Positions 35,881 through 52,797 of a DNA stretch of 64,000 nt are shown here, piece by piece. A program made the translations under genes and the position numbers. This DNA comes from Bacteroidota bacterium (lineage in GTDB: Bacteria > Bacteroidota > Bacteroidia > 2-12-FULL-35-15). The number at the start of each line of letters is the position of its first letter. Positions within the stretch are counted from its first letter, which is position 1. Location: the NCBI GenBank assembly GCA_025963715.1, contig JAOQAG010000021.1, forward strand, positions 1 through 64,000. Direction: 5' to 3'. The notes under the pieces were generated by a model. That model had not been told where the DNA came from. It did no database searches and saw only the letters and a list, made by a program, of their open reading frames with translations.

Positions 35881-36738
35881 TTAATGCCGGATGATTACCT
35901 TTTTATTTACAACTCCCTTATCGTTTTGTATTTTTAAAAAATAAGCTCCATCAGGTAATCCCGAAACATTAAATTCTGTGAGTTCATTCTCACTTTTTAC
36001 TGCAGCAATTACTTGTTTGCCAACTATATCAAATAATTCCAGTTCTATTGAGTTGTTAGCAACGGATCTTATATAGATTTTATCCGAAGCGGGATTGGGG
36101 TAAACAACAACTTTCAGTGATGAAAGCTCTTCGACATTTAGTGTGAGCGCATTAAAGGAATAATCTTTTACCGTGCAGCCATATGTCTGGCAATTCACCC
36201 TGATCCAACCGAAAATACTATCTGTAGCACTTTGATATTTTACACCAATGTATTGATCGGTAGAAGTTGACCAATCTGAAACAGATAAAGAAGTGCCCCC
36301 AACAAAATAACTATCTGTTAAGTAAAGATTATTATGATCCCATATTGCCTGTGACGAATTGATTGTATCTCCATAATTGAGTGGTTTTGCTACTCTGGCG
36401 GTTACCCAACCAGCGGAAGAAGGATTATAAGCCGAATCGATCTTTCCAAAGCTAATATACGAATTTGAGTTCAAAGGATTTATAGAAATATAAGCACTCA
36501 TAAAAGAAGCTGAATGAACATAGGAAGCATGCAATTCTAAATCATTGATAAAATCGCCATTAAGGTCAAAATAATAACTTTCGTTCGGATTAAGATAAGA
36601 GCAATTGATTAGTGTATCCGGGTTTACATCAACATAGGTAGAAAGGAGAGTACCGGCTGTATACACCTGCGCCTGTAAACTAAAAGCGGTAAAAAATGAA
36701 CCTGTAGCCAGTATAAATTTGATTATTACATGCTTCAT
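35881..36738 (-). CDS. T9SS-secreted protein, tandem paralogue B
   Basis: A 285-residue exported protein: signal peptide ending LQAQ near residue 24, a beta-rich domain of about 200 residues with 'VDVNPDTLINCSYLNPNESY', 'GDFINDLELHASY', 'AKPLNYGDTINSSQAIWDH' and 'GWIRVNCQTYGCTVKDYSFN', then a type A sorting domain from 'VVVYPNPASDKIYI'. The preceding gene encodes a near-copy of the mature domain. The two overlap by 4 bp (ATGA). The 'DLNGDFINDLEL' pattern resembles a calcium-binding loop. Function unknown. Confidence 0.82.
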   Translation of the reverse strand: MKHVIIKFILATGSFFTAFSLQAQVYTAGTLLSTYVDVNPDTLINCSYLNPNESYYFDLNGDFINDLELHASYVHSASFMSAYISINPLNSNSYISFGKIDSAYNPSSAGWVTARVAKPLNYGDTINSSQAIWDHNNLYLTDSYFVGGTSLSVSDWSTSTDQYIGVKYQSATDSIFGWIRVNCQTYGCTVKDYSFNALTLNVEELSSLKVVVYPNPASDKIYIRSVANNSIELELFDIVGKQVIAAVKSENELTEFNVSGLPDGAYFLKIQNDKGVVNKKVIIRH

Positions 36739-37589
36739 CTCTGCACAATTATTTTCTTAGTGAAGATACCATTTTTTGTTTTTACACTCACAAAATAAAT
36801 CCCGTTTGACAGGTCGCTTACATCCATTTCAGCGTTTTCTATGCTAGCATTTTTTTGTTTGACGATGCTACCGATCACATCTGTGATTTGTATTTGAGAA
36901 TAAGCGCTTGCCGATTCGATATGGATGAAAGTACTGGCAGGGTTAGGGTAAACAACAACTTTCGCTGATGAAAATTCTTCAACATTTAATGGGAGTGCAT
37001 TAAAAGAATAATCTTTTACAGTACAACCAGCTCCATGGCAATTTACCCTGATCCAACCGAAAATAGTATCTGCAACGTTTTGATATTTAACGCCGATGTA
37101 TCGATCTGTTGTTAAAGTTGACCAATCTGTAACGGATAAAGTGGAGCCTGCAACATAATAACTATCTGTTAAAAAAAGATGGCTATGGTCCCATATTGCC
37201 TGTGGCGAATTGATTGTATCGCCATAATTAAGCGGTTTTGCCACCCTGTCGGTCATCCAGCCGGCTAAATAAGTATTGTAGGAAGAATCAATCTTTCCAA
37301 AACTAATAGAGGAATTAGAATCCAAAGGATTTATTGAAATATAGGAACTTGTAAAACCGGGTGAGTTACTAAACGAAGCTTCTAATTCTAAATCATTTAT
37401 AAAATCACCGTTAATATCAAAATAATAGCTTTCGTGCGGATAAAAATAAGAGTCATTAATCAGTGTATCAGGATTTATATCGACATACGTAGAAAGAGGA
37501 GCGCCTGCGGTGTACACCTGTGCCTGCGTACTAAAACCGGCATGCAATAAAAAGGCTGCCAATATTAATTTGATTGTTAAATGCTTCAT
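36735..37589 (-). CDS. T9SS-secreted protein, tandem paralogue A
   Basis: A 284-residue exported protein, first of the tandem pair. Signal peptide ends TQAQ; the mature domain shares long identical blocks with its neighbour ('AKPLNYGDTINS', 'AIWDH', 'FGWIRVNC', 'GCTVKDYSFNAL', 'KVVVYPNPAS'). After YPNPAS the two sequences part: this one continues 'TFIHIESASAYSQIQITDV' and ends 'IFTKKIIVQR'. Both cargo domains should go to the same place while using different sorting tails. Upstream, 37590-37824 holds no gene. Confidence 0.82.
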   Translation of the reverse strand: MKHLTIKLILAAFLLHAGFSTQAQVYTAGAPLSTYVDINPDTLINDSYFYPHESYYFDINGDFINDLELEASFSNSPGFTSSYISINPLDSNSSISFGKIDSSYNTYLAGWMTDRVAKPLNYGDTINSPQAIWDHSHLFLTDSYYVAGSTLSVTDWSTLTTDRYIGVKYQNVADTIFGWIRVNCHGAGCTVKDYSFNALPLNVEEFSSAKVVVYPNPASTFIHIESASAYSQIQITDVIGSIVKQKNASIENAEMDVSDLSNGIYFVSVKTKNGIFTKKIIVQR

Positions 37590-40049: not shown

Positions 40050-40080
40050 AGCACTATTTAAATTAAATCTAAATAAGAAA

Positions 40081-40752
40081 GTGCCAAAAATCAAGATCAC
40101 CATTGCCGACAGTCATTTTTTAAGCCGCAAAGGGCTTGCCGTATTGCTGCAGGAAAATGTTGATTTTGTGTTGCTTTCAGAAGCTTTGAGTTCTTCCGAC
40201 CTGGTGAACCAGGCAAAATTTTACCAGCCCGATGTGATCATCATTGATTACACTTCCGCTAATTTTACACAAGAAAGCTTACAGCAGATCGTAAAAAAAT
40301 ACCCGGATTCTAAATTATTAGCGATCACCGATATCCAAAGTAATATTTCCATCGCGAAAGCAATGAACTCGGGCGTTACGAGCCATTTGTTAAAAGACTG
40401 CGACCAGGACGAAATTGTGGAAGCCATTTACAAAACGGCAAAAGGCGAAGCATTTATGTGTGGTAAAATTGCCAGCGCAGTGCTGGAAGACAAATCATCG
40501 TCGTTTACCGAATATACCTGCGAAGGATTGAACATCAGCGACCGCGAAATGGAGATCATCAAGCTGATCGCAGAAGGACTTTCCAACAAAGAAGTGGCTG
40601 ATAAATTATTTTTGAGCACACATACCGTTACTACACACCGCAAAAATATCATGAATAAACTGGGGCTGAACAATACAGCCGGATTGGTTTTATTCGCGGT
40701 TCGTGAAAATCTGATCTCCCCGAATCATTTCCTTTTTTCTGCTACTAATTAG
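40081..40752 (+). CDS. NarL/LuxR-family response regulator
   Basis: A 223-residue two-domain regulator. The receiver domain has phospho-acceptor D56 in 'DVIIIDYTSA' and the early acid D10 in 'ITIADSH'. The switch Thr region 'LLAITD' and 'HLLKDCDQDE' lysine are visible. The C-terminal LuxR helix-turn-helix is clear: 'LNISDREMEIIKLIAEGLSN', 'KEVADKLFLSTHTVTTHRKN'. It starts with GTG; no upstream ATG is in frame. No histidine kinase is adjacent. It could regulate the heme/iron island to its right, but nothing in the sequence shows this. Confidence 0.93.
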   Translation: MPKIKITIADSHFLSRKGLAVLLQENVDFVLLSEALSSSDLVNQAKFYQPDVIIIDYTSANFTQESLQQIVKKYPDSKLLAITDIQSNISIAKAMNSGVTSHLLKDCDQDEIVEAIYKTAKGEAFMCGKIASAVLEDKSSSFTEYTCEGLNISDREMEIIKLIAEGLSNKEVADKLFLSTHTVTTHRKNIMNKLGLNNTAGLVLFAVRENLISPNHFLFSATN

Positions 40753-41072: not shown

Positions 41073-42053
41073 TTACAGCTTCTTGTATTCAAATTCTGGA
41101 TATCCTTTTACACCCGATGAATTATAAAAATCGATAAAATGCAATTTGTAATAAAAACCTCTGCTATCGCTGATGATATAACATTTTGTGACATCCACCG
41201 TGTATACATTTGTCGCAATATCATACGTTTTCCAGTCGTAGCCGATGGCATTTTGTGCAGCCGAAAAAGTTTTGTTCAATGTATCATTGATCGTGATCGC
41301 GTTAAAGGTTTTGTCCGGAATGCCGATGACTCTGGTATTATAGCGGTTGATCAACACTCCCGTTACTAAATAATACTGGAAAGGCGAATAAAAAACATGG
41401 GTATATTGTGTAAAGCACAGGTCAAAATCGGTTTTCGCCGGTTCGGTAATTACTTCCAAATTTGATCCCAATGAAAAAGTTACAAAACTCTTATCTGCAT
41501 CTTTTGTAATGGTAGCAGTGTTTGTACCGCTCGTTCCATAAATATCGGCATATTCAATACTGAATGTAGTAGCGCTCATGCCGGTAATTTTCAATTTGTA
41601 ATATCCCTGTTGCTGCGCCAGTTCATTATATCCGCGGTTAACAACGTACACAGTATTGTTGCTTTGCCAATCGCCGGTAGCAGTGGAATCCAAGCTGCCG
41701 CTTGGGTTATCGCTGGTGCCGTGTACGCCCAAACCCACAGTATCATTTACCTGCGACAGATCAGTAAAATTTGTTTTGTAAATGCGCATGGATTTGGAAG
41801 TGTTCAGCAATACATGCGTACCGCTTGCACTGCACTCAAAAGCCAGGTCCCAGGCCGATTTTAAATTGGTGTACACCACCATGTGATCGTTCAGCCGGAA
41901 CCAAACCTGGTTCTTATAACTGGACGTCATTTCCACGGTGGCTGTAATGGCATCACCGCGATCATAAGCCGGTACAGGCGTTTCCTTCTTTTCGCAGGAG
42001 AATAAAAACAGGCTGCAAATAAAAACGAAAAATAATTTTAGTGTTCTTTCCAT
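41073..42053 (-). CDS. HmuY-like heme-binding lipoprotein
   Basis: A 326-residue lipoprotein with a type II signal peptide ending 'LFLFSC' near residue 20. The mature part fits the HmuY family: 'YKNQVWFRLNDHMVV', 'NLKSAWDLAFECSASG', 'DFDLCFTQYTHVF' and the late 'AIGYDWKTYDIATNVYTVD'. HmuY-type proteins sit on the cell surface, capture heme and pass it to a TonB receptor. Its start overlaps the end of the TonB receptor gene by 16 bp, so both are made from one mRNA. Heme ligands cannot be assigned by eye. Confidence 0.82.
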   Translation of the reverse strand: MERTLKLFFVFICSLFLFSCEKKETPVPAYDRGDAITATVEMTSSYKNQVWFRLNDHMVVYTNLKSAWDLAFECSASGTHVLLNTSKSMRIYKTNFTDLSQVNDTVGLGVHGTSDNPSGSLDSTATGDWQSNNTVYVVNRGYNELAQQQGYYKLKITGMSATTFSIEYADIYGTSGTNTATITKDADKSFVTFSLGSNLEVITEPAKTDFDLCFTQYTHVFYSPFQYYLVTGVLINRYNTRVIGIPDKTFNAITINDTLNKTFSAAQNAIGYDWKTYDIATNVYTVDVTKCYIISDSRGFYYKLHFIDFYNSSGVKGYPEFEYKKL

Positions 42054-44305
42054 AATTTCAAAGTCAGTTTGATAAAATAATTTCTTCCGGTGGCAAACGC
42101 TACCGACGATGCCGAACCGGAATGCACACCGGCCGCATAATTAGCGCTGATATTTTTTACATCCATGATGTTTTTACAACCCATCACAATGCTCAGCCTT
42201 TCTTTCCAGATATTTTTAGAAACCGATGCATCCAGCAACTGGTAATCGCCAATGTATGTTTGCGTTACCACATTATCCGTAAGCGCATATCCCGGTAATT
42301 TACCGTTGTACTTATAAAAAAACGAAATGCTGGTTTTTAGCTTTGAAAAGAAATATATTGCGGAGGCATTCACTTCCGGACTGTAGGAATAAGGGTATAC
42401 GTTTTCAGTTTCCGAAAGCTGGTTGTACCGGCCGCTGTATAAAATTCCGGCAGTGATCCTCAAATTTTTTACCGTTACATTTTCATTGATCCCACCGCCC
42501 AATGTGCGGTAATGCCCGATGTTGATATAGGAATATTGTACTGCATTGATCTGCGCCAGCGTGATCAGGTTAAAAATATCGTTGTAAAAAACAGAAGCAT
42601 CGGTGCGGAATGTAGCATTACGGATCTCTTTTTTATTGGCATAGCTGATCGAATAATTATTGGATTGCTCGGCTTTCAGATCCGGGTTACCGATAATATC
42701 GTGATTGATATCTACAAAATAAAAATACAATTCCTTTAGATCCGGTGCGCGGAAACCCCTGGCATAACTGGCGCGCAGTGTGTTGTTTTTATTGATCTCG
42801 TATTTTACGCTGAGTGATGGCGTGAGCGGCGATCTGTAAGAAGTGTTGTAGGTGTAACGCAAGCCCGGCTTAACGATCAATCGATCGAAAGGTTTGTATT
42901 CTGCCGTAGCAAAAACGGCAAAATCGCCCATGTACCGGATGTTGTTGCTGATGCGCTGGCCCAATGCCGATTCGTAATTAATGTCGTAACCGAATTCGTA
43001 ATTGAGCTTTGCGCTGTCGTTGGTGTGTGAAAATGTACTGCGCGACATGATCAGCGAATAGGCGCTCGTATCCTGGTCGGAAGGCGTACCCGTAAGCACT
43101 TCATTTAAATTCGTAAGATCTTTGTAAAACGTATTTTTTATACGCTTGTAATAATTGTAAGCATTGCTGCTGTTGATGTACCAATGACCGGCTAATTTTC
43201 CGGTCAATGAAATTGAATTATCAAAACGCGTGGTGTAATAATGATCGTCGAAAGCAGTTTCATAATACGGTGCACGCGGCATTCCGCGATTGATGATCTT
43301 TTCGTTAAAATAAGTGCCGCTGTAACCCAGCTGCACATTTTTTAAACGGTACGTGTAACCGATCGTTCCCTGGTATTGCTCTTTGCTTTTCCACTGCTGC
43401 ACACGGGTGGTATCGGCAGGATGTGTGCGCTCGTAAGTAAATAATTTATCGCCGGGATTCCAGCCGTCAAAATAATTGCGGCTAAGGGAAACGCTCAGGC
43501 TCGATTTTTTGAAAGACGCATCGGCAGCAGCCCTGAGATTATACGTGCCAATGCTTTCGTAATACGGACTGATGCTGATATCGTATTTATTTTTAAATGT
43601 TTTTTTTGTAATTAAATTGATGGTGCCCGCAAGTGCATTGGTGCCATATTGTACCGAAAGCGGGCCTTCTACAATTTCGATCCGCTCGATGTTATTAAGG
43701 TTGATCTGCGAAAGGTCGATGTTGCCATTCATCCTGCCGATCACCGGAACGCCATCGATCAGGATCTTTACATTTTCGCCACCAATGCATTCCATTTCCA
43801 TGCCCGCGCCTAAAATATTATCCTGCGAAAGGCGGATGTTCATTTCGTTGCTCAGCACATCTTTTAAATTGGTAGCGCCCATCGCTTCGATTTTTTTCGC
43901 ATCGATCACTTTTATTTTCTGTACCGATTTTTCGGCAAGAGTAGGCGTGTACTGCGCTGTAACAACTACTTCGCCAAGCTTTACATGATCAGGCGTTAAA
44001 TAAATGAGGTTGATTTTTTTTAATTCCTTTCCACTTAATTTTTTTAAAAACGAATGAAAACCAATCGATTTCATTTCTGCAATGTATTGTGCCGAATCGT
44101 ACAATACCGCATCCGAAAGATTTACCTGCCCGATGTCATCTGTCTGGAATTGTTGCACCTGTGCGGTGATCACATTTTTAATGCTCAAGAAAGAATACGA
44201 AACAGGCAATTTGTTTTCTTCGTTGATCACCGTGATCGTTTGCCCGAAAGCACCAACAACACAGAGAAATAAGATAATAAAAGCGGGGAGTAATTTTTTA
44301 TTCAT
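42038..44305 (-). CDS. TonB-dependent outer-membrane receptor, probable heme/iron type
   Basis: A 755-residue receptor. After the signal peptide (ending AFGQ) comes a carboxypeptidase-like beta-sandwich. A plug domain starts 'LGEVVVTAQYTPTLAEKSVQ' and contains 'ILIDGVPVIGRMNGNIDLSQ' and 'IERIEIVEGPLSVQYGTNAL'. The 22-strand barrel carries 'NKNNTLRASYARGFRAPDLK' and a TonB-dependent C-terminal 'FIKLTLKLW'. Between two HmuY-like genes it is a good HmuR-type heme receptor candidate. Its ATG overlaps the stop of the 33-residue frame just upstream (ATGA). Confidence 0.92.
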   Translation of the reverse strand: MNKKLLPAFIILFLCVVGAFGQTITVINEENKLPVSYSFLSIKNVITAQVQQFQTDDIGQVNLSDAVLYDSAQYIAEMKSIGFHSFLKKLSGKELKKINLIYLTPDHVKLGEVVVTAQYTPTLAEKSVQKIKVIDAKKIEAMGATNLKDVLSNEMNIRLSQDNILGAGMEMECIGGENVKILIDGVPVIGRMNGNIDLSQINLNNIERIEIVEGPLSVQYGTNALAGTINLITKKTFKNKYDISISPYYESIGTYNLRAAADASFKKSSLSVSLSRNYFDGWNPGDKLFTYERTHPADTTRVQQWKSKEQYQGTIGYTYRLKNVQLGYSGTYFNEKIINRGMPRAPYYETAFDDHYYTTRFDNSISLTGKLAGHWYINSSNAYNYYKRIKNTFYKDLTNLNEVLTGTPSDQDTSAYSLIMSRSTFSHTNDSAKLNYEFGYDINYESALGQRISNNIRYMGDFAVFATAEYKPFDRLIVKPGLRYTYNTSYRSPLTPSLSVKYEINKNNTLRASYARGFRAPDLKELYFYFVDINHDIIGNPDLKAEQSNNYSISYANKKEIRNATFRTDASVFYNDIFNLITLAQINAVQYSYINIGHYRTLGGGINENVTVKNLRITAGILYSGRYNQLSETENVYPYSYSPEVNASAIYFFSKLKTSISFFYKYNGKLPGYALTDNVVTQTYIGDYQLLDASVSKNIWKERLSIVMGCKNIMDVKNISANYAAGVHSGSASSVAFATGRNYFIKLTLKLWKEH

Positions 44306-44403
44306 CTGTTTATAAAGTTGTACAACAGTATCATGATCCCGATGGAAATGACAATAATGCTGAAGTAAAAAAAGAATTCTTTTATTTTTTCCTTATAGCT
44401 CAT
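44302..44403 (-). CDS. 33-residue single-helix membrane microprotein upstream of the TonB receptor
   Basis: A frame of MSYKEKIKEFFFYF followed by a 17-residue hydrophobic helix (SIIVISIGIMILLYNF) and a basic end INR. Its TGA stop overlaps the ATG of the TonB receptor as ATGA, the classical sign of translational coupling. The positively charged N-terminus followed by one helix predicts an inner-membrane protein with N-in topology. It is too short for default gene finders. I recognise no family. Confidence 0.55.
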   Translation of the reverse strand: MSYKEKIKEFFFYFSIIVISIGIMILLYNFINR

Positions 44404-44744
44404 ACACAGATGTTGGATGTTAGAGTATTAGATATTAGACTGTGTGTGAAATGAGATATTAGATATTAGATGTTGGATTTTAGATATTGGACTGTGTGTG
44501 CGTTAATTTGTTTTTTAGTATGTCTGTTTTCGACTCTCGGCTGGCGCGAGCGTCCCGCTCGTGCCGTTTTATTTTATGGCGTCCCGCCATTTTGTTTTTT
44601 AGCCAGTCTTTCTCGACTCCGCTCGAAATGACATTCGGAGATCGTCGCTCAAATTGTCATTTCGAGCGGAGTCGAGAAATAGGCATTGGTTTATGTACAT
44701 TTTAAATACAGTCCAACATCTAACATCCAATATCCAGCATCCGT
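44404..44744. repeat. Intergenic repeats with a 25-bp perfect inverted repeat
   Basis: TTAGATATTAGATGTTGGA and GACTGTGTGTG phrases fill 44410-44500. GGCGCGAGCGTCCCGCTCGT lies near 44538-44560 and also occurs three times at 51491-51761. The arms TTTCTCGACTCCGCTCGAAA... (44609-44633) and ...TTTCGAGCGGAGTCGAGAAA (44655-44679) are perfect 25-bp complements around a 21-nt loop. No gene. Confidence 0.85.
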
Positions 44745-45719
44745 TTAACTGTTTTTCAAAAACGATTCGATCACACTTTTAATTTCCGGTGTAGCCGTTC
44801 CCTGCACGTAATCAGTACCTTTGCAGGATCTTACACCCAGCTCGAATAATTTTTCATGCAATTTTTTATTGTCCACTTTCGGGCTGATCTTCAAATCTTT
44901 TTGAGATCCGTACACATCGGCCCATACTTTACGAACGTCCGCCCAGTAATTTTGCTGCTTTTGCCAGTATTTAATAGCCGGTACGGCATCGTAATTTCCT
45001 TTCGTGAATTTTTCAATTCCTTTTTCCCAACACAGTAATTTATCCACACCGTCGTTGCGTACGATCTTTTCATTGTCCTGTTCCTGCAACCAGCCATCAT
45101 TGGTAACAATCACGCGGGCATGGCGGCGCATCACATTGTAATCGCTGCGTTTTGTATATTCCCTGCGTGGAAGCGGCGCATCGGCATCGCCTTCCCAGTA
45201 ATTTTTCCCATCCACATGGATCCAGGTGCCGTAGCTTTCGTAACGCGGACTGTCATCTACCGAAAATACTTTTTGTGTCCAGGTACCTTTTGCCTGCTCC
45301 GGTGTAATGTCCTTACGGATCCACTCATCATTTTTGTAATAGCCGTACAGTTCGGTATTTTCATACACCCAATCCTGGCGCCAGTGTTTCACAATAATGC
45401 TGTCGTTCACAATCAGCAAATGTTGCAGCGCAATGCGGTTTGCTGTTTCCTCTACCAAAAACACATACTCAATTCCGGTTTCGTGGTAGCGGTTATGGAA
45501 TTTGTAAGCGGTATCCGGACTAAATGTTTCCGCAAAATCAAACGTTACTTTATAGATCCCGCAAAGGCTTTTAATAGATGCTTTGTCCAGTTCCAGTTTG
45601 GAGTTTGTTTCTGCAACAACCGGTGTTTTGCTTGCTGCGGGAGCTTTTGCAACCGGTTTTGTTTGTGCTATTGCGCAGATAGAGGTAAGCGCCAATGCAA
45701 ACGCAATTATTTTTTTCAT
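44745..45719 (-). CDS. DUF6607-family exported protein
   Basis: A 324-residue protein with a signal peptide ending AIAQ. The mature part matches, from memory, the DUF6607 family: 'IKSLCGIYKVTFDFAETFSP', 'YRYHETGIEYVFLVEE'-type strands, 'IVKHWRQDWVYENTELYGYY', 'TWTQKVFSVDDSPRYESYGT' and 'RREYTKRSDYNVMRRHARVI'. The function of the family is unknown. It lies between a HmuY-like gene and the TonB receptor gene, so a role in heme or metal handling in the periplasm is inferred from context. Confidence 0.7.
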   Translation of the reverse strand: MKKIIAFALALTSICAIAQTKPVAKAPAASKTPVVAETNSKLELDKASIKSLCGIYKVTFDFAETFSPDTAYKFHNRYHETGIEYVFLVEETANRIALQHLLIVNDSIIVKHWRQDWVYENTELYGYYKNDEWIRKDITPEQAKGTWTQKVFSVDDSPRYESYGTWIHVDGKNYWEGDADAPLPRREYTKRSDYNVMRRHARVIVTNDGWLQEQDNEKIVRNDGVDKLLCWEKGIEKFTKGNYDAVPAIKYWQKQQNYWADVRKVWADVYGSQKDLKISPKVDNKKLHEKLFELGVRSCKGTDYVQGTATPEIKSVIESFLKNS

Positions 45720-45753
45720 GTCTTTGTTATTTGTTTTTATGATGAATGTGTGA

Positions 45754-47013
45754 TTATTGTTTTACAAATTTCTGAACGTTTGTGAATCCCGGTGCGGATA
45801 AGCGGATCATGTAAATACCGCTGCTCAGCTCATCTACGGAAGTAGAATACGTATTAAAACCTGCTGTTAAATTCATTGTTTGCGCAGAAATGATTTTGCC
45901 GGTAATGTCCATGATGGTAAGCGTTACATCGTTCACTTCTTTCTCAGAAGAAAATAAAACATGCAGCTCGCCATTGGAAACCGGGTTTGGATACAAGGAG
46001 AATTTAGAGATCGTATTTCCTGCCACATCTTCAATTCCGGTGGTAGACAGCAGTGTTTTTCCAAACATAAAATCACCATTCGCACTTCCGCCAAAACCTG
46101 TAAAACGCAGCTTCCAGATGTCGCCGTTAGCGGTTTGTATAAAATAGCAGGTGTCGTGGGAAACATTGTAAGCGCCGGTGCTCATGTTAAACGATTTCCA
46201 GTCGTAGCCGATCTCGTTCATGGGCGTGTTAAAAGTAGCACCCGAATAATTGTTATACGTTTCTACCGAAGGCACATTGTCTGCTTCCGCTACCTTCAGG
46301 CCTTTATTGCTCAAAATGCCCGTTACGCCGTAAGCGGATGGAATAAACGTGGTGTATTTTACAAAAGTCAGATCCCAATTCGCAGTCGCCGGTTCGCGGT
46401 CAATCTCTGTATTGTTTGTCAGGTCATAATAACCGAAATTTTTGTTCGGATACGTTGCTTTTGCAAGTGCATGCGTTTGCAGGCTACTTCCGTCGATGTT
46501 GGCGTAAGTGAAATTATAAATGCCGTTTCCGAGATTATCAATTTTAAATTTTTTATAAGATGCTGCCGATAATTTGATCACAAAGCAGGAATCACCGTTC
46601 ACAAAATGAGTTCCCATATCGTAAATTCCCCAGCCAAGGTCAAACGGGTCGCTGGTAATGCCTTTATTAAAAGCGCCTATGCTCCAGGTAGTGTCGGAAT
46701 TAAAAACGGTTGGCCAGCCTGCAATGCCCGCTGTATCCAGTGTGTTAAAATTGCCGATGCTGAATGGTGTTTTGTACACCATAAAGCTGGCTTTTTGCGT
46801 GTTCGCGATGATGGAAGCCGAAAAGCCGGTGATCTCAAATCCCAGGTCCCAATTATCTTTTGATTGCGCTGTTCCCTGTTCATCATTTGCTAAGCTGTAC
46901 CATTTTTGGTTGGCATATCCGGCGCTTAAAGATACCGTATCGGTAATTTCTGTTTGAGCAAAAGTGCTGATGCCCAGTGCCATGCTTAAAAGTGTGGTTG
47001 TAATTTTTTTCAT
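45754..47013 (-). CDS. HmuY-like domain protein with T9SS sorting domain
   Basis: A 419-residue protein: signal peptide ending TFAQ, a HmuY-like domain ('SLSAGYANQKWYSLANDEQG', 'SKDNWDLGFEITGF', 'NEIGYDWKSFNMSTGAYNVS', 'FMFGKTLLSTTGIED') and a type A sorting domain ('FSLYPNPVSNGELHVLF' to 'NVQKFVKQ'). It shares its internal pattern with the HmuY-like lipoprotein at 41073 but leaves the cell by type IX secretion instead of being lipid-anchored from the periplasm. It is the first gene of the leftward operon. It could act as a released hemophore. Confidence 0.82.
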   Translation of the reverse strand: MKKITTTLLSMALGISTFAQTEITDTVSLSAGYANQKWYSLANDEQGTAQSKDNWDLGFEITGFSASIIANTQKASFMVYKTPFSIGNFNTLDTAGIAGWPTVFNSDTTWSIGAFNKGITSDPFDLGWGIYDMGTHFVNGDSCFVIKLSAASYKKFKIDNLGNGIYNFTYANIDGSSLQTHALAKATYPNKNFGYYDLTNNTEIDREPATANWDLTFVKYTTFIPSAYGVTGILSNKGLKVAEADNVPSVETYNNYSGATFNTPMNEIGYDWKSFNMSTGAYNVSHDTCYFIQTANGDIWKLRFTGFGGSANGDFMFGKTLLSTTGIEDVAGNTISKFSLYPNPVSNGELHVLFSSEKEVNDVTLTIMDITGKIISAQTMNLTAGFNTYSTSVDELSSGIYMIRLSAPGFTNVQKFVKQ

Positions 47014-47050
47014 ATATTATTTTTATTTGGATTAATTATAAATAACGGCA

Positions 47051-47081
47051 CAAAAGTGCGTCCTGATTGCTTTCCATGCAA
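47051..47081 (-). promoter_or_regulatory. Leftward promoter of the HmuY/TonB operon
   Basis: Read on the minus strand: TTG (47079-47081), a 20-nt spacer and CACTTTTG (47051-47058), one base off TAnnTTTG. The TTG lies inside the palindrome at 47079-47100. The gene start is about 38 nt downstream of the box. Confidence 0.6.
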
Positions 47082-47100
47082 TACCTAATTCAAGGTATTG
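47079..47100. promoter_or_regulatory. Candidate operator 1 (CAATACCT-N6-AGGTATTG)
   Basis: Perfect 8-bp inverted repeat with a 6-nt spacer. It shares both arms, the spacer length and AA at both spacer-arm junctions with the site at 47117. It covers the -33 element of the leftward promoter, the place for a repressor. Confidence 0.7.
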
Positions 47101-47116
47101 ATACATTTTAGCGAAA

Positions 47117-47136
47117 AATACCTAAAAGAAGGTATT
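47117..47136. promoter_or_regulatory. Candidate operator 2 (AATACCT-N6-AGGTATT)
   Basis: Perfect 7-bp inverted repeat, 37 bp centre-to-centre from operator 1. Its right edge overlaps the -33 TTG (47135-47137) of the rightward promoter. Confidence 0.7.
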
Positions 47137-47164
47137 GGGGGCGGGGGCTGAAAAGTTAATTTTG
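47135..47164 (+). promoter_or_regulatory. Rightward promoter of the porin/Rieske/imelysin operon
   Basis: TTG at 47135-47137, a 19-nt spacer and TAATTTTG at 47157-47164: an exact consensus match. The porin ATG lies 33 nt beyond. Confidence 0.8.
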
Positions 47165-47197
47165 TGCTGTTATTTAAAATTAGTCTAAACAATTTTT

Positions 47198-48412
47198 ATG
47201 AAAAAATTACTCCTGCTTTCGCTTTCGGTTTTAAACCTTTTATCGGCGCAAGCGCAAGTACTAACCAAAGAAGATTCATTAAATGCCGGTTTGATCGCAC
47301 GTAATACCTCCACCGTTGTATCCGGATACGGAAGTTTAAAATACCAATACGAAACCCGCCCGAAAGTAGCACGCGCCAATCTGGACCGCGCTGTGATTTT
47401 CCTGGGACATAAGTTCAATAATAAGATCTCTTTTTTCTCGGAACTGGAAGTGGAAGACGCCAAAGTAACCGGCGGTGAAGTAGGAGGGGAAGTAGCCTTG
47501 GAACAAGCGTTTCTGAAATTCCAGGCCACAAAAAACATGTACATCACGGCAGGGTTATTCATTCCGCGCATCGGCATCATCAACGAAAATCACTTGCCTA
47601 CTACTTTTAACGGAAACGACCGTCCGTTTGTGGAAACCTTTATTATTCCTTCCACCTGGCGCGAGATCGGGATTGGATTGTATGGAAACCTGAATGCTGT
47701 ACCCGGATTAAATTATTCACTGGCATTGGTAAACGGTTTAAGCTCTGCTGATTTTAAAAGTGGCAGCGGCATCCGCGAAGGACGCTTTGAAGGTCGCGAC
47801 GCTAACGCATCTGCACTGGCCGTTACCGGATCTTTATTGTACTACATTAAACATTTCCGTTTGCAGGCTTCCGCTTATTACGGTGGCAGTGCGGGGCTTA
47901 CAAAAAATCAGGGCGACAGCCTGCAATTATCCTACGGCAGTTTTGGTACGCCGGTATTATTGACCGAAGGCGATGCGCAATACCTGAACAAAGGATTGAC
48001 CGTGAAAGCATTGTTCACCATGGTAAACATTTCCGATGCGCAAGCTATTAATCGCGCTTACGCGAACAACACACCGGAAGCCATGATGGGCTATTACGGT
48101 GAGATCGGTTACAATATTTTACAGCTTACAAAATGGAAAGAAAAAAACTTAACCGTTTTTGCGCGTTATGAAAGCCTGGATATGAATTACAAATTACCTT
48201 CGAACGGTATTGTGGACGGTACACTCAATCAGCAATACATCATTGGCGGTTTAACGTTTCAGCCGCTCAAAGGTGTAACGGTAAAAGCCGATTATGTATT
48301 CAAACAGACCGGAGATAAGAACCCGGCATTGGTAACCACACCGTTTCCGGTAGGTATTCCGTATTACAAAACACAGGGATTTTTTAACCTCGGTGTTGGA
48401 TACAGCTTTTAA
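47198..48412 (+). CDS. Outer-membrane porin-like beta-barrel protein
   Basis: A 404-residue protein with a signal peptide ending AQAQ. It has alternating beta strands, 'GYGSLKYQYETRPKVARANL' and 'ISFFSELEVEDAKVTGGEVG' at the start and the C-terminal 'GFFNLGVGYSF' ending in aromatic Phe, as for barrel proteins of the porin/phosphate-selective type. It is the first gene of the rightward operon with a Rieske protein, an imelysin and a di-heme oxidoreductase. It may carry metal complexes or a reductant across the outer membrane; the substrate is not readable. Confidence 0.82.
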   Translation: MKKLLLLSLSVLNLLSAQAQVLTKEDSLNAGLIARNTSTVVSGYGSLKYQYETRPKVARANLDRAVIFLGHKFNNKISFFSELEVEDAKVTGGEVGGEVALEQAFLKFQATKNMYITAGLFIPRIGIINENHLPTTFNGNDRPFVETFIIPSTWREIGIGLYGNLNAVPGLNYSLALVNGLSSADFKSGSGIREGRFEGRDANASALAVTGSLLYYIKHFRLQASAYYGGSAGLTKNQGDSLQLSYGSFGTPVLLTEGDAQYLNKGLTVKALFTMVNISDAQAINRAYANNTPEAMMGYYGEIGYNILQLTKWKEKNLTVFARYESLDMNYKLPSNGIVDGTLNQQYIIGGLTFQPLKGVTVKADYVFKQTGDKNPALVTTPFPVGIPYYKTQGFFNLGVGYSF

Positions 48413-48422
48413 CAAATTGAAA

Positions 48423-48857
48423 ATGCAGAACAGAAGGGATTTTATAAAACAGTCGTGCACGTTGTGTGTTGGTTTGGTTGGGCTTGGTGCTCTTGCCACG
48501 CAGCTGAGCAGCTGTGCGCCTTTACCAGTTTTAAAAGGCGAATCGAAAGACGGCATCATCACTGTTCCCATTATTTCCTTTACCGAAAAAAGCAATGTAA
48601 TGATCGTGCGTAATGCACAGCTTGATTTTGATATTGCACTGGTAAAAAACTCTGATTCGGATTACACGGCGCTGCTCATGAAATGCACGCACCAGGACAA
48701 TCCCTTATCACTTACAAAAAACGGTTTGTATTGCGCCTCTCACGGCAGTGCATTCGACCTGAAAGGTAATGTAACGCAGGAGCCTGCATTGACGCCTTTA
48801 AAAAAATTCACAACAGAAATTACTAATTCATCTATCCTAATAAATACAAAATCATAA
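48423..48857 (+). CDS. Tat-exported Rieske 2Fe-2S protein
   Basis: A 144-residue Rieske protein. The N-terminus has a twin-arginine signal 'MQNRRDFIKQSCTLCVGL' followed by a lipobox-like 'LSSCAPLP', so it is probably a Tat-exported lipoprotein. The cluster ligands are C-T-H in 'MKCTHQDNPL' and C-A-S-H in 'LYCASHGSAFDLKG'. I choose the ATG that gives the Tat signal; a TTG ten codons upstream would disrupt it. It could pass electrons between the di-heme oxidoreductase and another periplasmic donor. Confidence 0.92.
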   Translation: MQNRRDFIKQSCTLCVGLVGLGALATQLSSCAPLPVLKGESKDGIITVPIISFTEKSNVMIVRNAQLDFDIALVKNSDSDYTALLMKCTHQDNPLSLTKNGLYCASHGSAFDLKGNVTQEPALTPLKKFTTEITNSSILINTKS

Positions 48858-48863
48858 GCACTC

Positions 48864-49949
48864 ATGAAAAAAATTAATTTACTTTATGCAGCAGCATTGG
48901 TTGCAACCATCACAACTATTGGATGTAAAAAAGAACCGGATGCAGAACCAACACAACCGGCAACTACCACATCGGATTTAAATGCAGATGTATTATCGGC
49001 TTTTACAGTAAACGTAACGCAGGCTACTTACAATGATTTGTCAACCAAAGCATTGAATTTATCTACCAGCGTACAAACATTTAACAGCGCTACTACGGAC
49101 GATAATTTAACCCAGTGCAAGCAATTGTGGCGCGATTGCCGTTATTCATGGGAACAATCGGAAGGCTTTTTATTCGGGCCTGCTGCAACGCAAAGCATCG
49201 ATCCGCGCATTGATACATGGCCGGTGGATTACGTAGCACTGGATTCTATTTTGAGCAGCTCCGCTACTTTTTCAGAATCGTATGTAAACGGGTTGGATGA
49301 TGCATTGCGCGGTTTTCACCCGATCGAATATTTATTGTTCGGGACAAACGGAAACAAAACCGCATCTCAATTCACTACACGTGAAAAAGATTTCCTGATC
49401 GCGTTAACAACCAATTTGTCAAACTTAACTTCGCAATTATCGCAAAGCTGGAACCCTTCTGTTTCCGGGAATTATTCGGTGCAGGTAAGCACTGCCGGAT
49501 CAAGCGGAAGCGTGTATGCAACCAAACGTGCGGCATTTGAAGAAATGGTAAATGCCATGGCCGATATTTGTAACGAAGTTGCAAACGAAAAGATTGAAAC
49601 ACCTTTTGTAGCGCAGGACCCAAACCTGGAAGAATCGCCTTTCTCGTTCAATTCCATTGCCGATTTTACGAACAACATCCGCAGTGTACAGAATGTATAT
49701 TTAGGAAAATATGCAACGGATGGAAAAGGATTGGAAGATCTTGTTCGCGCCAATAACTTATCATTGGATGGAACCATCAAATCAAAAATAAATTCAGCGA
49801 TCGCTTCGCTTAACGCCATTACTGTGCCTTTCGGACAAGCGATCATTTCACAACAAGTACAGGTGGCCAACGCACAAACTGCCATCAATAATTTGAAATC
49901 TGTGATTGAAAATGATTTGATGACCTACGTGCAAACTTATACTCACTAA
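48864..49949 (+). CDS. Imelysin-family (peptidase M75-like) lipoprotein
   Basis: A 361-residue lipoprotein ('TTIGCKKEPD' lipobox). The imelysin signature GxHxxE appears as 'LRGFHPIEYLLFG' near residue 155, with 'WRDCRYSWEQSEGFLFGPA' earlier and 'EEMVNAMADICNEVANEKIE' later. The fold is an all-helical bundle duplicated in the chain. Members (ICMP, IrpA, EfeO-related) act in iron uptake and are often iron-regulated. It is 6 nt after the Rieske gene and 8 nt before the di-heme gene, a tight operon. Confidence 0.92.
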   Translation: MKKINLLYAAALVATITTIGCKKEPDAEPTQPATTTSDLNADVLSAFTVNVTQATYNDLSTKALNLSTSVQTFNSATTDDNLTQCKQLWRDCRYSWEQSEGFLFGPAATQSIDPRIDTWPVDYVALDSILSSSATFSESYVNGLDDALRGFHPIEYLLFGTNGNKTASQFTTREKDFLIALTTNLSNLTSQLSQSWNPSVSGNYSVQVSTAGSSGSVYATKRAAFEEMVNAMADICNEVANEKIETPFVAQDPNLEESPFSFNSIADFTNNIRSVQNVYLGKYATDGKGLEDLVRANNLSLDGTIKSKINSAIASLNAITVPFGQAIISQQVQVANAQTAINNLKSVIENDLMTYVQTYTH

Positions 49950-49957
49950 GATCAGGA

Positions 49958-51340
49958 ATGAAAAAGTACGTTGTCTATTTAGGAATTATTTCCATTGCTG
50001 CTATCCTGTTGGCTGAATCCTGCCGCAAGCCGGAAGAGCTTACTGACGACCAGTATAACGAATGGCTTTCGGGCGGTTCGCAAACGGTTTTTAATACGGG
50101 TTCCGGTGCATTTGGATCACAGTTTGCCGGGATGTCGGCAAGAGGAAATTTTAACCACGAAGTAGGTGATGCAGCTTTTGGTTCCACCTTTGTAAGTGCC
50201 CCGGCGCCTGTACACCAGGGTTTAGGCCCGGTATTCAACAGTGTTTCGTGTTCTTCCTGTCATGTTTCCGACGGTAGAGGAAAACCTCCGGGGCCGGGAG
50301 AACAAATGGTATCCATGCTTTTCAGGGTAAGCATTCCTGGCGAAGATGAACACGGCGGGCCAATGCCTGCACCGGGTTTTGGCGGACAGCTGCAACAACG
50401 CGCTATTGCCGGATCAACACCCGAAGCAACCATTGGGATTACTTATACTTATCAAACGTACTTTTTTCCGGACGGGCAATCCTACGAGTTGAGAACGCCA
50501 ACGTATATGCTTCAGACACCTTATTGCCCTGTCCCTGCCGGGATGATGCTCTCGCCACGCGTAGCACCGCCGGTATTTGGATTGGGCCTGCTGGAAGCTA
50601 TTCCTGAATGGGCCTTGCTGGCACACCAGGATGTGAACGATGCCGATCACGATGGTATTTCCGGAAAAGCAAATTATGTGTGGAATGTATTGAAAAACGA
50701 TAAATCCATCGGGCGCTTTGGCTGGAAAGCCGGAAACCCAACACTGTTACAACAATCTGCAGGTGCGTACAACCAGGACATGGGGATCACCAATTTTATT
50801 TTCAATAAAGAAAGCTGCGAAGGCCAAACGCAATATCAAAACCTGGACGATGAACCGGAAGTATCCGACAGCTTGTTATACGCTGTTGCTTTTTACATGC
50901 AAACACTTTCGGTTCCCGGAAGAAGGATGGCGGATGATGCAGAAGTAAAACGCGGTAAACAAATTTTTACGCAGGCAAAATGCAGCTCCTGTCACGTACC
51001 GATGTACAAAACAGATGTGAATGTGGCATTCCGCGAAGTATCCAATCAAACTATTTTTCCATACACGGATCTATTGTTGCACGATATGGGAGCAGGCCTG
51101 GCAGATAACCGCCCTGATAACCTTGCGGATGGTAATGAGTGGAAAACACCGCCATTGTGGGGAATCGGACTTACGCAGGTGGTGAACGGGCACAATAATT
51201 TTTTACACGATGGCCGTGCGCGTTCGTTTATTGAAGCCATTATGTGGCATGGAGGAGAAGCTGCACCGTCGGCACAATTTGTTGCTAATTTATCTACCGA
51301 CGATAGAAATGCATTATTGAAATTTCTGGGATCGTTATAA
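49958..51340 (+). CDS. Di-heme oxidoreductase-like c-type cytochrome (DUF1111 family)
   Basis: A 460-residue exported protein (signal/lipobox 'LLAESC' near residue 22). Two heme-binding CxxCH motifs are present: 'NSVSCSSCHVSDGRG' near residue 100 and 'TQAKCSSCHVPMYK' near residue 345. 'DLLLHDMGAGLADNRPD', 'WKTPPLWGIGL' and the end 'FLHDGRARSFIEAIMWHGGE' are typical of this thiol oxidoreductase-like/MauG-CcpA-related group. Co-occurrence with imelysin is well known in Proteobacteria. It needs the Ccm system encoded at 12.7-17.6 kb for heme attachment. Confidence 0.93.
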   Translation: MKKYVVYLGIISIAAILLAESCRKPEELTDDQYNEWLSGGSQTVFNTGSGAFGSQFAGMSARGNFNHEVGDAAFGSTFVSAPAPVHQGLGPVFNSVSCSSCHVSDGRGKPPGPGEQMVSMLFRVSIPGEDEHGGPMPAPGFGGQLQQRAIAGSTPEATIGITYTYQTYFFPDGQSYELRTPTYMLQTPYCPVPAGMMLSPRVAPPVFGLGLLEAIPEWALLAHQDVNDADHDGISGKANYVWNVLKNDKSIGRFGWKAGNPTLLQQSAGAYNQDMGITNFIFNKESCEGQTQYQNLDDEPEVSDSLLYAVAFYMQTLSVPGRRMADDAEVKRGKQIFTQAKCSSCHVPMYKTDVNVAFREVSNQTIFPYTDLLLHDMGAGLADNRPDNLADGNEWKTPPLWGIGLTQVVNGHNNFLHDGRARSFIEAIMWHGGEAAPSAQFVANLSTDDRNALLKFLGSL

Positions 51341-51861: not shown

Positions 51862-51920
51862 ATTACGTTTAATTTACAGACCTTTTAACCTAATCTTAGT
51901 GTTCTTAGTGCCTTAGTGGT
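51831..51920. repeat. Fold-back element FB5 (ACCAC...GTGGT)
   Basis: ACCACATAAGGCACAAAAGAAC (in two words, from 51831) pairs with GTTCTTAGTGCCTTAGTGGT ending at 51920, enclosing about 45 bp. The left arm is the end of the third tandem unit, so the tandem array seems to have grown from a fold-back end. The right end stops 12 nt before the -7 box of the next gene. Confidence 0.7.
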
Positions 51921-51931
51921 AAAAAATAACT

Positions 51932-51939
51932 TAAATTTG
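51932..51939 (+). promoter_or_regulatory. -7 box abutting the start codon of the BadF-type kinase
   Basis: TAAATTTG ends only 3 nt before the ATG at 51943. If transcription begins 4-8 nt after the box, the mRNA is leaderless. Confidence 0.55.
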
Positions 51940-51942
51940 TCC

Positions 51943-52797
51943 ATGATTTTAATCGCGGATAGTGGTTCCACTAAAACAGACTGGAGATTGATCGATGAGC
52001 ATCAAAAGATCCATCAATGTGCCACACAAGGCATCAATCCATATTTTCAAACATCCGTACAAATTTCGGAGATCATCCGTTCGGAGTTGTTTTTACAACC
52101 GGCCCTCAATATTCCAACGCAGGAATTACAGGTGTTTTTTTACGGCGCAGGCTGCCGGGTGGAAGATAAAAAACAAATAGTGAGGTTGGCGCTGGAGGAA
52201 AATTTTCCGGATGCCGTGATAGAGATCAATACTGATATCCTGGGCGCAGCGCATGCGTTATGCGGGCATCATGCGGGCATTGCCGCCATCCTGGGAACAG
52301 GCGCCAATACGTGTTATTACGATGGCGAAAAGATCACAGAGAACCGCACATCTACCGGTTATATACTGGGCGACGAAGGAAGCGGGGCGCACATTGGCAA
52401 AACGTTTATACAGGCATTTTTAAATGATGAATTGCCTGCCGAGCTTTCAAAACGTTTTTACGATCGTTTTAAATTAAGCAAGGATGAGATCATTGATGCC
52501 GTTTACCGCCAACCGATGCCGAATCGTTTTTTAGCATCGTTCAGTAAATTCATTTATCAGAATTTAAAAGAACAATTTGTTATTGATCTTGTCAGCAATT
52601 GTTTTAACCAGTTTTTTGAAAAACACATTTGCCGTTATCCCAGATACAAGGAAGTGAAACTCAGCTGCGTGGGATCGGTAGCGTTTTATTACAGCAATAT
52701 CCTGCGTTCCGTTGCCGAAAACCACGGCGTAAACATCGAAACGATCATCGAAACCCCAATCGCCGGATTAACCCTGTATCACTTAGAAGATGAATAA
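51943..52797 (+). CDS. BadF/BadG/BcrA-type ATPase, probable N-acetylglucosamine kinase
   Basis: A 284-residue ASKHA-fold kinase. Phosphate-1 loop 'LIADSGSTKTDWRLID', phosphate-2 region 'GIAAILGTGANTCYYDG' and 'GYILGDEGSGAHIGKTF' are those of the N-acetylglucosamine kinase/BadF group. The C-terminal 'SCVGSVAFYYSNIL' adenosine motif is present. It should phosphorylate amino sugars recovered from peptidoglycan or chitin. A longer TTG frame begins nine codons upstream, inside the repeat; the ATG at 51943 is right at the conserved N-terminus. Confidence 0.88.
   Translation: MILIADSGSTKTDWRLIDEHQKIHQCATQGINPYFQTSVQISEIIRSELFLQPALNIPTQELQVFFYGAGCRVEDKKQIVRLALEENFPDAVIEINTDILGAAHALCGHHAGIAAILGTGANTCYYDGEKITENRTSTGYILGDEGSGAHIGKTFIQAFLNDELPAELSKRFYDRFKLSKDEIIDAVYRQPMPNRFLASFSKFIYQNLKEQFVIDLVSNCFNQFFEKHICRYPRYKEVKLSCVGSVAFYYSNILRSVAENHGVNIETIIETPIAGLTLYHLEDE

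Follow-up and report, generated by a model that had tools for sequence, protein, structure and literature searches.

Two divergent operons of haem-uptake and porin-Rieske-imelysin-DHOR type in a Bacteroidota genome and their predicted common iron control

Described relatives of the two operons

Two operons that are read outwards from one intergenic region were analyzed in a stretch of 64,000 nucleotides from a Bacteroidota genome (contig JAOQAG010000021.1), which is called the window here. The left operon (41073-47013, minus strand) carries haem-uptake genes of the Hmu/Rhu type, and the right operon (47198-51340, plus strand) encodes a porin-like protein, a Rieske protein, an imelysin and a di-haem oxidoreductase (DHOR). 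The closest described counterpart of the left operon is the RhuH-RhuR-RhuA system of Riemerella anatipestifer, in which a haemophore, a TonB-dependent receptor and a HmuY-type protein occur together. RhuH (PDB 8XJC) is presented as "a novel haemophore of Riemerella anatipestifer" with a dissociation constant of 3.4e-11 M for haem, and the recombinant protein alone is reported to extract haem from haemoglobin (PMC11967795). In the same report His96 is the iron ligand and Arg143, Tyr144, Arg170, Arg183 and Gln198 lie at the haem propionates, in a pocket that was partly modelled. The neighboring genes B739_1416 and B739_1417 encode the TonB receptor and the HmuY protein and are described as co-induced under iron limitation (PMC5429918). 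HmuYRSTUV of Porphyromonas gingivalis likewise combines a HmuY haemophore with a TonB receptor, and the regulator PG1237 is implicated there. The hfp operon of Flavobacterium psychrophilum is reported to be iron-repressed (PMC9331221); its HfpR-DoxX-HfpY set is also a TonB receptor with a HmuY protein, in a neighborhood of iron and electron-transfer genes. With regard to the right operon, an imelysin is found beside a DUF1111 di-haem protein in PA4370-4373 of Pseudomonas aeruginosa and in EfeO with its DUF1111-type partner, and the two protein families are treated as functionally linked in iron uptake (PMC3143127). In Bizionia argentinensis, iron, Rieske, cytochrome c and imelysin genes are reported to drop together when the non-Fur activator MliR is deleted (PMC9478572).

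Our analysis indicates that the locus probably consists of two iron-starvation operons of known kinds, set back to back under a shared promoter layout and working in parallel, not as one machine. Compared with RhuH-RhuR-RhuA, the left operon has an additional head gene for a HmuY protein exported by the type IX secretion system (T9SS) and a 33-amino-acid open reading frame (ORF), and all of its genes share a strand, whereas in R. columbipharyngis (L057) the TonB and DUF6607 genes point away from each other. Compared with HmuYRSTUV, it includes a DUF6607 gene and its HmuY proteins (326 and 419 amino acids) are only distantly similar to PDB 3H8T; no hmuSTUV-like genes follow it, and beyond its end at 41073 comes a regulator gene on the opposite strand (40081-40752). 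Gene order also differs from that of HfpR-DoxX-HfpY, and the available parts of the hfp report mention no porin-Rieske-imelysin-DHOR operon. Whereas two imelysins flank DUF1111 in PA4370-4373, the right operon has one imelysin, together with a porin-like barrel and a Tat-type Rieske lipoprotein. In contrast to EfeUOB, EfeU did not turn up near the right operon, in a survey that included no FTR1 profile search. What is new is the four-gene right operon and a promoter layout of palindrome plus Fur-like box, a modest but testable addition. A preliminary description, made from the sequence of the window alone, had stated that no described system has this exact set; this holds for the whole set, while the left half corresponds to the Rhu and Hmu systems. 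Overall, the locus is an uncommon pairing of known kinds, plus an iron operator for which no description was found in the open-licence literature, to which all of our literature searches refer.

Gene content of the two operons and their occurrence in relatives

The ORFs, their coordinates and their Pfam profiles agree with the gene content and the two divergent operons of the preliminary description. The left operon, read on the minus strand, begins with a HmuY-family haem-binding protein (P0004; 45754..47013; Pfam HmuY 3.2e-8) that has a T9SS sorting tail (Por_Secre_tail 7.4e-14). It is followed by the DUF6607 protein (P0003; 44745..45719; Pfam DUF6607 1.6e-106), the 33-amino-acid ORF (44302..44403), which overlaps the start of the TonB gene by 4 nt, the TonB-dependent receptor in the position of HmuR or RhuR (P0002; 42038..44305; Pfam 2.8e-30), and a HmuY-family lipoprotein in the position of RhuA (P0001; 41073..42053; Pfam HmuY 9e-15).

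The DUF6607 protein carries the assignment of this operon. The AlphaFold2 model of P0003 (mean pLDDT 89) matched PDB 8XJC with a Foldseek E value of 1e-32 and with a VIA Z of 34.7, at 1.8 A over 270 residues and 47% identity, while the next best structural match reached a Z of only 10.8. A phmmer comparison of the two proteins gave an E value of 4e-75, and identity between them ranged from 44 to 47%. All six pocket residues of RhuH (H96, R143, Y144, R170, R183 and Q198) are present in P0003, as H112, R159, Y160, R186, R199 and Q214, and each of them is invariant in 36/36 aligned DUF6607 proteins. Judged by sequence and model, P0003 is a RhuH-family haemophore, and haem binding is predicted for it; for the other haem-uptake proteins of the window, haem binding would follow from homology. 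A DUF gene of this genome is thereby given a likely function. The 36 sequences that conserve the pocket include members of the Crocinitomicaceae and the Cytophagales, beyond the two main carrier families named in the RhuH report, and no paper naming DUF6607 was found. DUF6607 occurred in 1 of 41 relatives, and in none of the 24 other genus members sampled.

Because the DUF6607 protein matches RhuH, whose gene in Riemerella adjoins those of a TonB receptor and a HmuY protein, the left operon is a haem-uptake system of the Hmu/Rhu type, and the left half of the locus is explained by its homology to published systems. The haem-uptake type proposed in the preliminary description is thus upheld by the RhuH identity and by the HmuY and TonB receptor profiles. 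A HmuY-family gene adjoins the TonB receptor gene, as in the Hmu and Rhu systems, and a profile search placed both HmuY matches of the genome at this operon. The best PDB matches of the P0001 AlphaFold2 model were HmuY, BfrB, PinO and Tfo. HmuY proteins hold haem with two His or two Met residues; in the HmuY alignment (A3), H219 was conserved in 10/16 sequences, M42 in 11/16 and M89 in 12/16, with no invariant His or Met pair. The haem-receptor motif FRAP-His-NPDL is present in P0002; the full motif was seen in 8/47 homologues, all eight with the His. To place the operon among its relatives, 45 DUF6607 loci were used (27 from one survey and 18 of the 20 carriers in a sample of the class, the two omitted being the window and G232). 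A TonB gene was near 42 of them and a HmuY gene near 41, and the order HmuY with T9SS tail, DUF6607, TonB receptor, HmuY lipoprotein was found in 9/45, and additionally in the window and G232. With respect to the membrane microprotein that had been proposed before the TonB gene, the 33-amino-acid ORF does exist and has a hydrophobic stretch by eye; in 14 related loci, none of the short ORFs that precede the TonB gene resembled it.

Two side observations concern the haem-uptake loci. A hairpin with a 25-bp stem lies between the DUF6607 and TonB genes (44612-44676; fold z -8.6 for 44500-44760). No further copy of its arm was found in the window or the fetched loci, except where this stretch itself recurs, and the hairpin could make TonB expression weaker than that of the haemophores. 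In addition, a PepSY_TM-flavodoxin reductase gene is near 21/45 DUF6607 loci, and in HmuY/TonB/DUF6607 loci (L035-L061 and others) it is accompanied by DUF2271 and ankyrin proteins; this set is a candidate haem or iron reductase module.

The right operon, on the plus strand, starts with an outer-membrane beta-barrel protein of porin-like type (47198..48412). The Tat-type Rieske [2Fe-2S] lipoprotein (P0006; 48423..48857; Pfam Rieske 9e-10) has an NCBIfam TAT signal; its twin Arg, and the ATG at 48423 as its likelier start, were read by eye from the translation. Its CTH...CASH motif belongs to the pattern CxH-N14-CxxH, which was present in 40/40 homologues. The imelysin (M75) lipoprotein (P0007; 48864..49949; Pfam 1.6e-64; nearest PDB entries 3n8u and 4ecg) has the motif GFHPIE, with GxHxxE in 24/33 homologues. 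The last gene encodes the DHOR/DUF1111 lipoprotein (P0008; 49958..51340; Pfam 1e-103) with two CxxCH haem sites, at residues 98 and 342. Lipoboxes were recognized by eye in the translations of P0001, P0006, P0007 and P0008.

Across the class, DHOR genes occur in two kinds of operon, a long type with a DHOR of about 460 amino acids, to which P0008 belongs, and a short type with one of about 400. Long DHOR genes were defined by E <= 1e-80; 24 of the 31 other class-sample genomes that have one were fetched (those outside the fetched set being G235, G306, G313, G309, G244, G138 and G259), which together with G022 gave 25 loci. An imelysin gene was present in 25/25 long-DHOR loci and in 0/29 of a selection of short-DHOR loci. 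The order porin-Rieske-imelysin-DHOR was found in 12 of the 25, porin-imelysin-DHOR in 2, and imelysin-DHOR, sometimes plus a second imelysin, in 10. The remaining locus is interrupted by a contig end; it is that of G022, a member of the window's genus, where palindrome, porin and Rieske lie on a separate contig and neither contig has a HmuY match. Because the same order recurs in 12/25 long-DHOR loci and imelysin in all of them, the right operon of the window is a typical example of a four-gene set that is conserved. It is a conserved variant of the imelysin-DUF1111 operons; no study of it was found, and the porin-Rieske-imelysin-DHOR set is newly described here as an iron-linked operon. By analogy with those operons, it most likely serves non-haem iron. 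The short type has the order DHOR-Rieske-porin, with the Rieske ORF not picked up in one locus (L067). In the short-DHOR loci (L063, L064, L067, L069-L074 and L203-L222), a repressor with DtxR and FeoA domains accompanies 18/29 and an NRAMP transporter 6/29, and this is apparently a second, separately regulated DHOR module. A plasmid search with the DHOR protein returned only relatives of <60% identity, among them one Cytophagales plasmid with imelysin-DHOR alone.

The haem module and the DHOR module are mostly found apart, and their pairing recurs but is uncommon. A HmuY gene was present in the flanks of 3/25 long-DHOR loci (G232, G180 and G275) and of 0/29 short-DHOR loci; the long-DHOR flanks were inspected up to about 9 kb, and some contigs were much shorter. 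Conversely, DHOR was near 0/45 DUF6607 loci, or 2/47 when the window and G232 are included. In G232 the order HmuY with T9SS tail, DUF6607, TonB, HmuY lipoprotein, imelysin, DHOR, imelysin runs on one strand. At the level of whole genomes, a long DHOR gene was present in 5/20 genomes with DUF6607 and in 27/275 without it (p=0.05), whereas any DHOR gene was present in 7/20 (5.6 expected) and 76/275, respectively, which is not significant (p=0.45). The absence of co-conservation, which the preliminary description had named as a result that would speak against its proposal, was thus found in part.

The divergent promoter and its elements in other genomes

The operons are separated by 184 bp (47014-47197), and both read outwards through the same series of elements: a palindrome ATACCT-N6-AGGTAT, TTG, 19-20 nt, [TC]AnnTTTG, a Fur-like box and the ATG. 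The two palindromes are ATACCTAATTCAAGGTAT (47081..47098) and, 37 bp from it, ATACCTAAAAGAAGGTAT (47118..47135). The -33 and -7 boxes were placed with the Bacteroidota -33/-7 promoter consensus; for the right operon the -33 TTG is at 47135-47137 and the candidate -7 box, TAATTTTG, at 47157..47164 on the plus strand. A Fur-like box lies downstream for the right operon (47172..47190, plus strand, 2 mismatches) and for the left operon (47025..47043, minus strand, 3 mismatches), and a third match in the window is at 40056-40074. The palindrome motif was derived from the window itself, and the Fur consensus was taken from published Riemerella boxes (PMC5609570) and background on Fur sites.

The exact 18-base palindrome has 5 sites in the genome compared with 0 for the reversed control. 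Apart from the two in the window, one lies before feoAB, one before sufA-sufB and one between recJ and a 52-amino-acid Cys-rich ORF (G000:C12:8863-8880; L114). FeoA, FeoB, SufA-type, SufB-type and DHH/DHHA1 domains were confirmed beside these sites, and the Cys-rich ORF is possibly a protein of the FeoB-associated type. The plain 16-base form TACCT-N6-AGGTA showed no enrichment there (7 sites versus 10 for the reversed control), and two of its seven sites sit within genes. In 25 genomes of the genus, 30 palindrome sites were found versus 4 for the reversed control; they precede sufA, feoA, TonB receptors, DUF4856 lipoproteins, a 277-amino-acid barrel and the G022 porin, among others. Some, situated in coding sequence or where two genes converge (L094, L095, L096 and L104), are probably due to chance. 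Across the class, the exact palindrome was present in 117/295 genomes but control hits were also many, and no enrichment is claimed at that level.

To compare promoters, the upstream 200 bp were searched with the window excluded, and 556 other promoters of the same loci served as controls. With up to 2 mismatches, the palindrome was found at 9/15 operons headed by a T9SS-tailed HmuY gene and at 8/18 long-DHOR operons, compared with 0/27 short-DHOR operons and 9/556 controls. The Fur-like box, with up to 3 mismatches, was found at 12/15 and 9/18 of these operons and at 43/63 divergent TonB/DUF6607 promoters, compared with 1/27 short-DHOR operons and 22/556 controls. Both elements are thus enriched at the HmuY-headed and long-DHOR operons of other families (Fisher p 4e-8 to 1e-13). 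Spacing was examined in 20 promoters selected for the palindrome, the window's two and L176 included. [TC]AnnTTTG begins 21-23 nt after the palindrome in 10 of them (1.3% for random starts), and the Fur-like box lies 35-38 nt after it in 9, one with 4 mismatches (3.0% for random starts).

The shared layout, the enrichment at both operon types and the palindromes at feoAB and suf point to co-control of the two operons within an iron regulon, and Fur control is predicted for both. The iron theme of the preliminary description is borne out to this extent, as both operons look iron-controlled from one divergent promoter region. Several observations weigh against this interpretation. The Fur-like boxes alone are not significant in the window, where 8/100 shuffles do as well as the 3 matches. 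The palindrome is at 4/63 divergent TonB/DUF6607 promoters (Fisher p 0.03) and so is not general for haem operons. As for right-operon promoters, 10/18 have no palindrome and 9/18 no Fur-like box, while 6/556 control promoters have both elements together. The loci are not phylogenetically independent (three, for example, are from Brumimicrobium), and the mismatch limits and spacing ranges were set only after the data had been seen. The identity of the porin is weak as well: the porin-like protein is the conserved first gene of the right operon, which agrees with the porin of the preliminary description, but its Porin_O_P score of 19.7 bits is below the gathering threshold of 20.9.

Proposed mechanism, candidate regulators and competing explanations

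According to the reading that we favor, of two operons in parallel, the T9SS-exported HmuY protein and the RhuH-family haemophore would take haem outside the cell, the HmuY lipoprotein would keep it on the cell surface and import would be through the TonB receptor, roles that are drawn from the homologues. The right operon would separately handle non-haem iron: imelysin may bind or hand over iron while DHOR and Rieske together transfer electrons for iron redox reactions, and a comparable assumption is described for EfeO and its DUF1111-type partner (PMC3143127). Fur would repress both operons when iron is ample, and a second factor would act at ATACCT-N6-AGGTAT in addition to Fur. The position of the palindrome just upstream of the -33 box suggests that this factor is an activator. 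The published list of Fur-regulated genes of Riemerella contains hmuY, hmuR and an adjacent gene, and these three are reported to remain about 8-fold iron-responsive in a fur mutant, a response that a second iron factor would fit; an imelysin gene is also on the list (PMC5609570). We tentatively propose that the class has a second iron switch besides Fur, which recognizes ATACCT-N6-AGGTAT, and that the right operon is an outer-membrane iron redox and uptake machine under it. If so, the palindrome would occupy an activator position, upstream of -33, at iron-uptake promoters and a repressor position, between -33 and -7, at suf. The Fur-like box would commonly lie downstream of -7, and the divergent promoter of the window would be a two-sided model target. 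The palindrome would then offer these bacteria a defined DNA site for coordinating iron uptake with ferrous transport and Fe-S assembly.

A NarL/LuxR-type regulator with conserved cysteines (40081..40752, plus strand) adjoins the left operon and is a candidate binder of the palindrome, in the manner of PG1237, although we regard this as unlikely. The 7-2-7 inverted repeat of the palindrome resembles NarL sites. In the regulator subfamily C107 and C127 are invariant in 6 diverged members, and in 9/30 loci, the window included, the gene is beside HmuY, DUF6607, imelysin, porin, TonB or DUF4856 genes; it is beside the 277-amino-acid barrel in 6 further loci (counts in which "HmuY_T9" labels of <200 amino acids, which are T9SS-tail matches, were skipped). 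PG1237 itself is reported to activate hmuY and hmuR in P. gingivalis (PMC3832793). However, the regulator was found at >300 bits in 19/25 genus genomes, and the sufA palindrome is kept in 3 of the 4 regulator-less genomes with a readable promoter (G003, G017 and G018), of which G017 also has it at feoA. In 15 genomes with the regulator, the sufA palindrome is present in 9 and absent in 6 (p=1), which is a weak test as 5 of those 6 have the palindrome elsewhere. G004 has no exact palindrome in its genome and none at sufA. By eye, the regulators (40081-40752 and L301-L330) show cysteines in K[DE]C- and F[FYM]C-like contexts and a degenerate acidic pair in the receiver (REC) domain, and the gene sits in a STAS/RNase Z/regulator locus whose neighbors vary and are often of iron type in several families.

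Rrf2 was rejected as the binder, with matches in 11/25 genus genomes and none in the palindrome-bearing G001, G002, G003, G009, G011, G017 and G024. MliR is reported to activate TonB-receptor, imelysin, FeoB-associated, Rieske and cytochrome c genes in Bizionia (PMC9478572). No MliR-like ORF was found in 350 locus records, which at 2.69 Mb cover part of the genomes and say little on absence, and the short-DHOR promoters are without the palindrome (0/27).

The preliminary description had proposed that the right operon feeds the left, with DHOR, Rieske and imelysin acting at the surface to oxidize or reduce haem or iron complexes, the product of which would pass to the haem-uptake proteins. We consider this improbable, and its release of haem iron found no support beyond adjacency and common control. 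The shared divergent promoter with its layout and the recurrence of HmuY-DHOR adjacency in G232, G180 and G275 are in its favor, as are the redox gene of a different kind, the PepSY_TM flavoreductase, near 21/45 DUF6607 loci and the reported placement of hfp in a 19-kb region with putative iron or electron-transfer genes (PMC9331221). These are set against the 22/25 long-DHOR loci at which no HmuY gene was seen, the 2/47 DUF6607 loci near which DHOR occurs, and a RhuH that is reported to need no partner to extract haem from haemoglobin (PMC11967795). It is also conceivable, though we would not put it foremost, that the RNase Z-NarL-type regulator locus is a hot spot that accumulates iron cassettes, so that the operons are neighbors by position and linked only by common regulation. 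What follows the regulator gene in relatives is DUF4856, a TonB receptor or the 277-amino-acid barrel (similar to DUF6662, below cut-off), often with a palindrome in the intervening DNA, and DUF6607 is confined to this genome among 25 of the genus. The HmuY and DHOR neighbors in three other genomes and the symmetry of the divergent promoter argue the other way. A hot spot is compatible with two parallel iron-starvation operons, the explanation that we prefer.

That the right operon serves a different metal or redox task, such as manganese, copper, peroxide defence or MauG-like cofactor maturation, appears doubtful to us, to about the same degree as the feeding proposal. The related short-DHOR operon, with its DtxR-type repressor and NRAMP transporter, could mean Mn as well as Fe. 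The Fur-like boxes in half of the right-operon promoters, the palindrome that the operon has in common with feoAB and suf, and the imelysin gene in every fetched long-DHOR locus speak for iron. In Bizionia, moreover, Rieske and cytochrome c genes with near-consecutive tags are reported to fall together with iron-uptake genes in the low-iron regulator mutant (PMC9478572); this cytochrome c gene is a candidate DHOR only.

Elsewhere in the window, no Rfam match reached the gathering score. The next gene to the right of the right operon (51916-52797) has a weak BcrAD_BadFG match, and a tandem pair of closely similar proteins with apparent T9SS tails, by eye, is encoded at 35881-37589.

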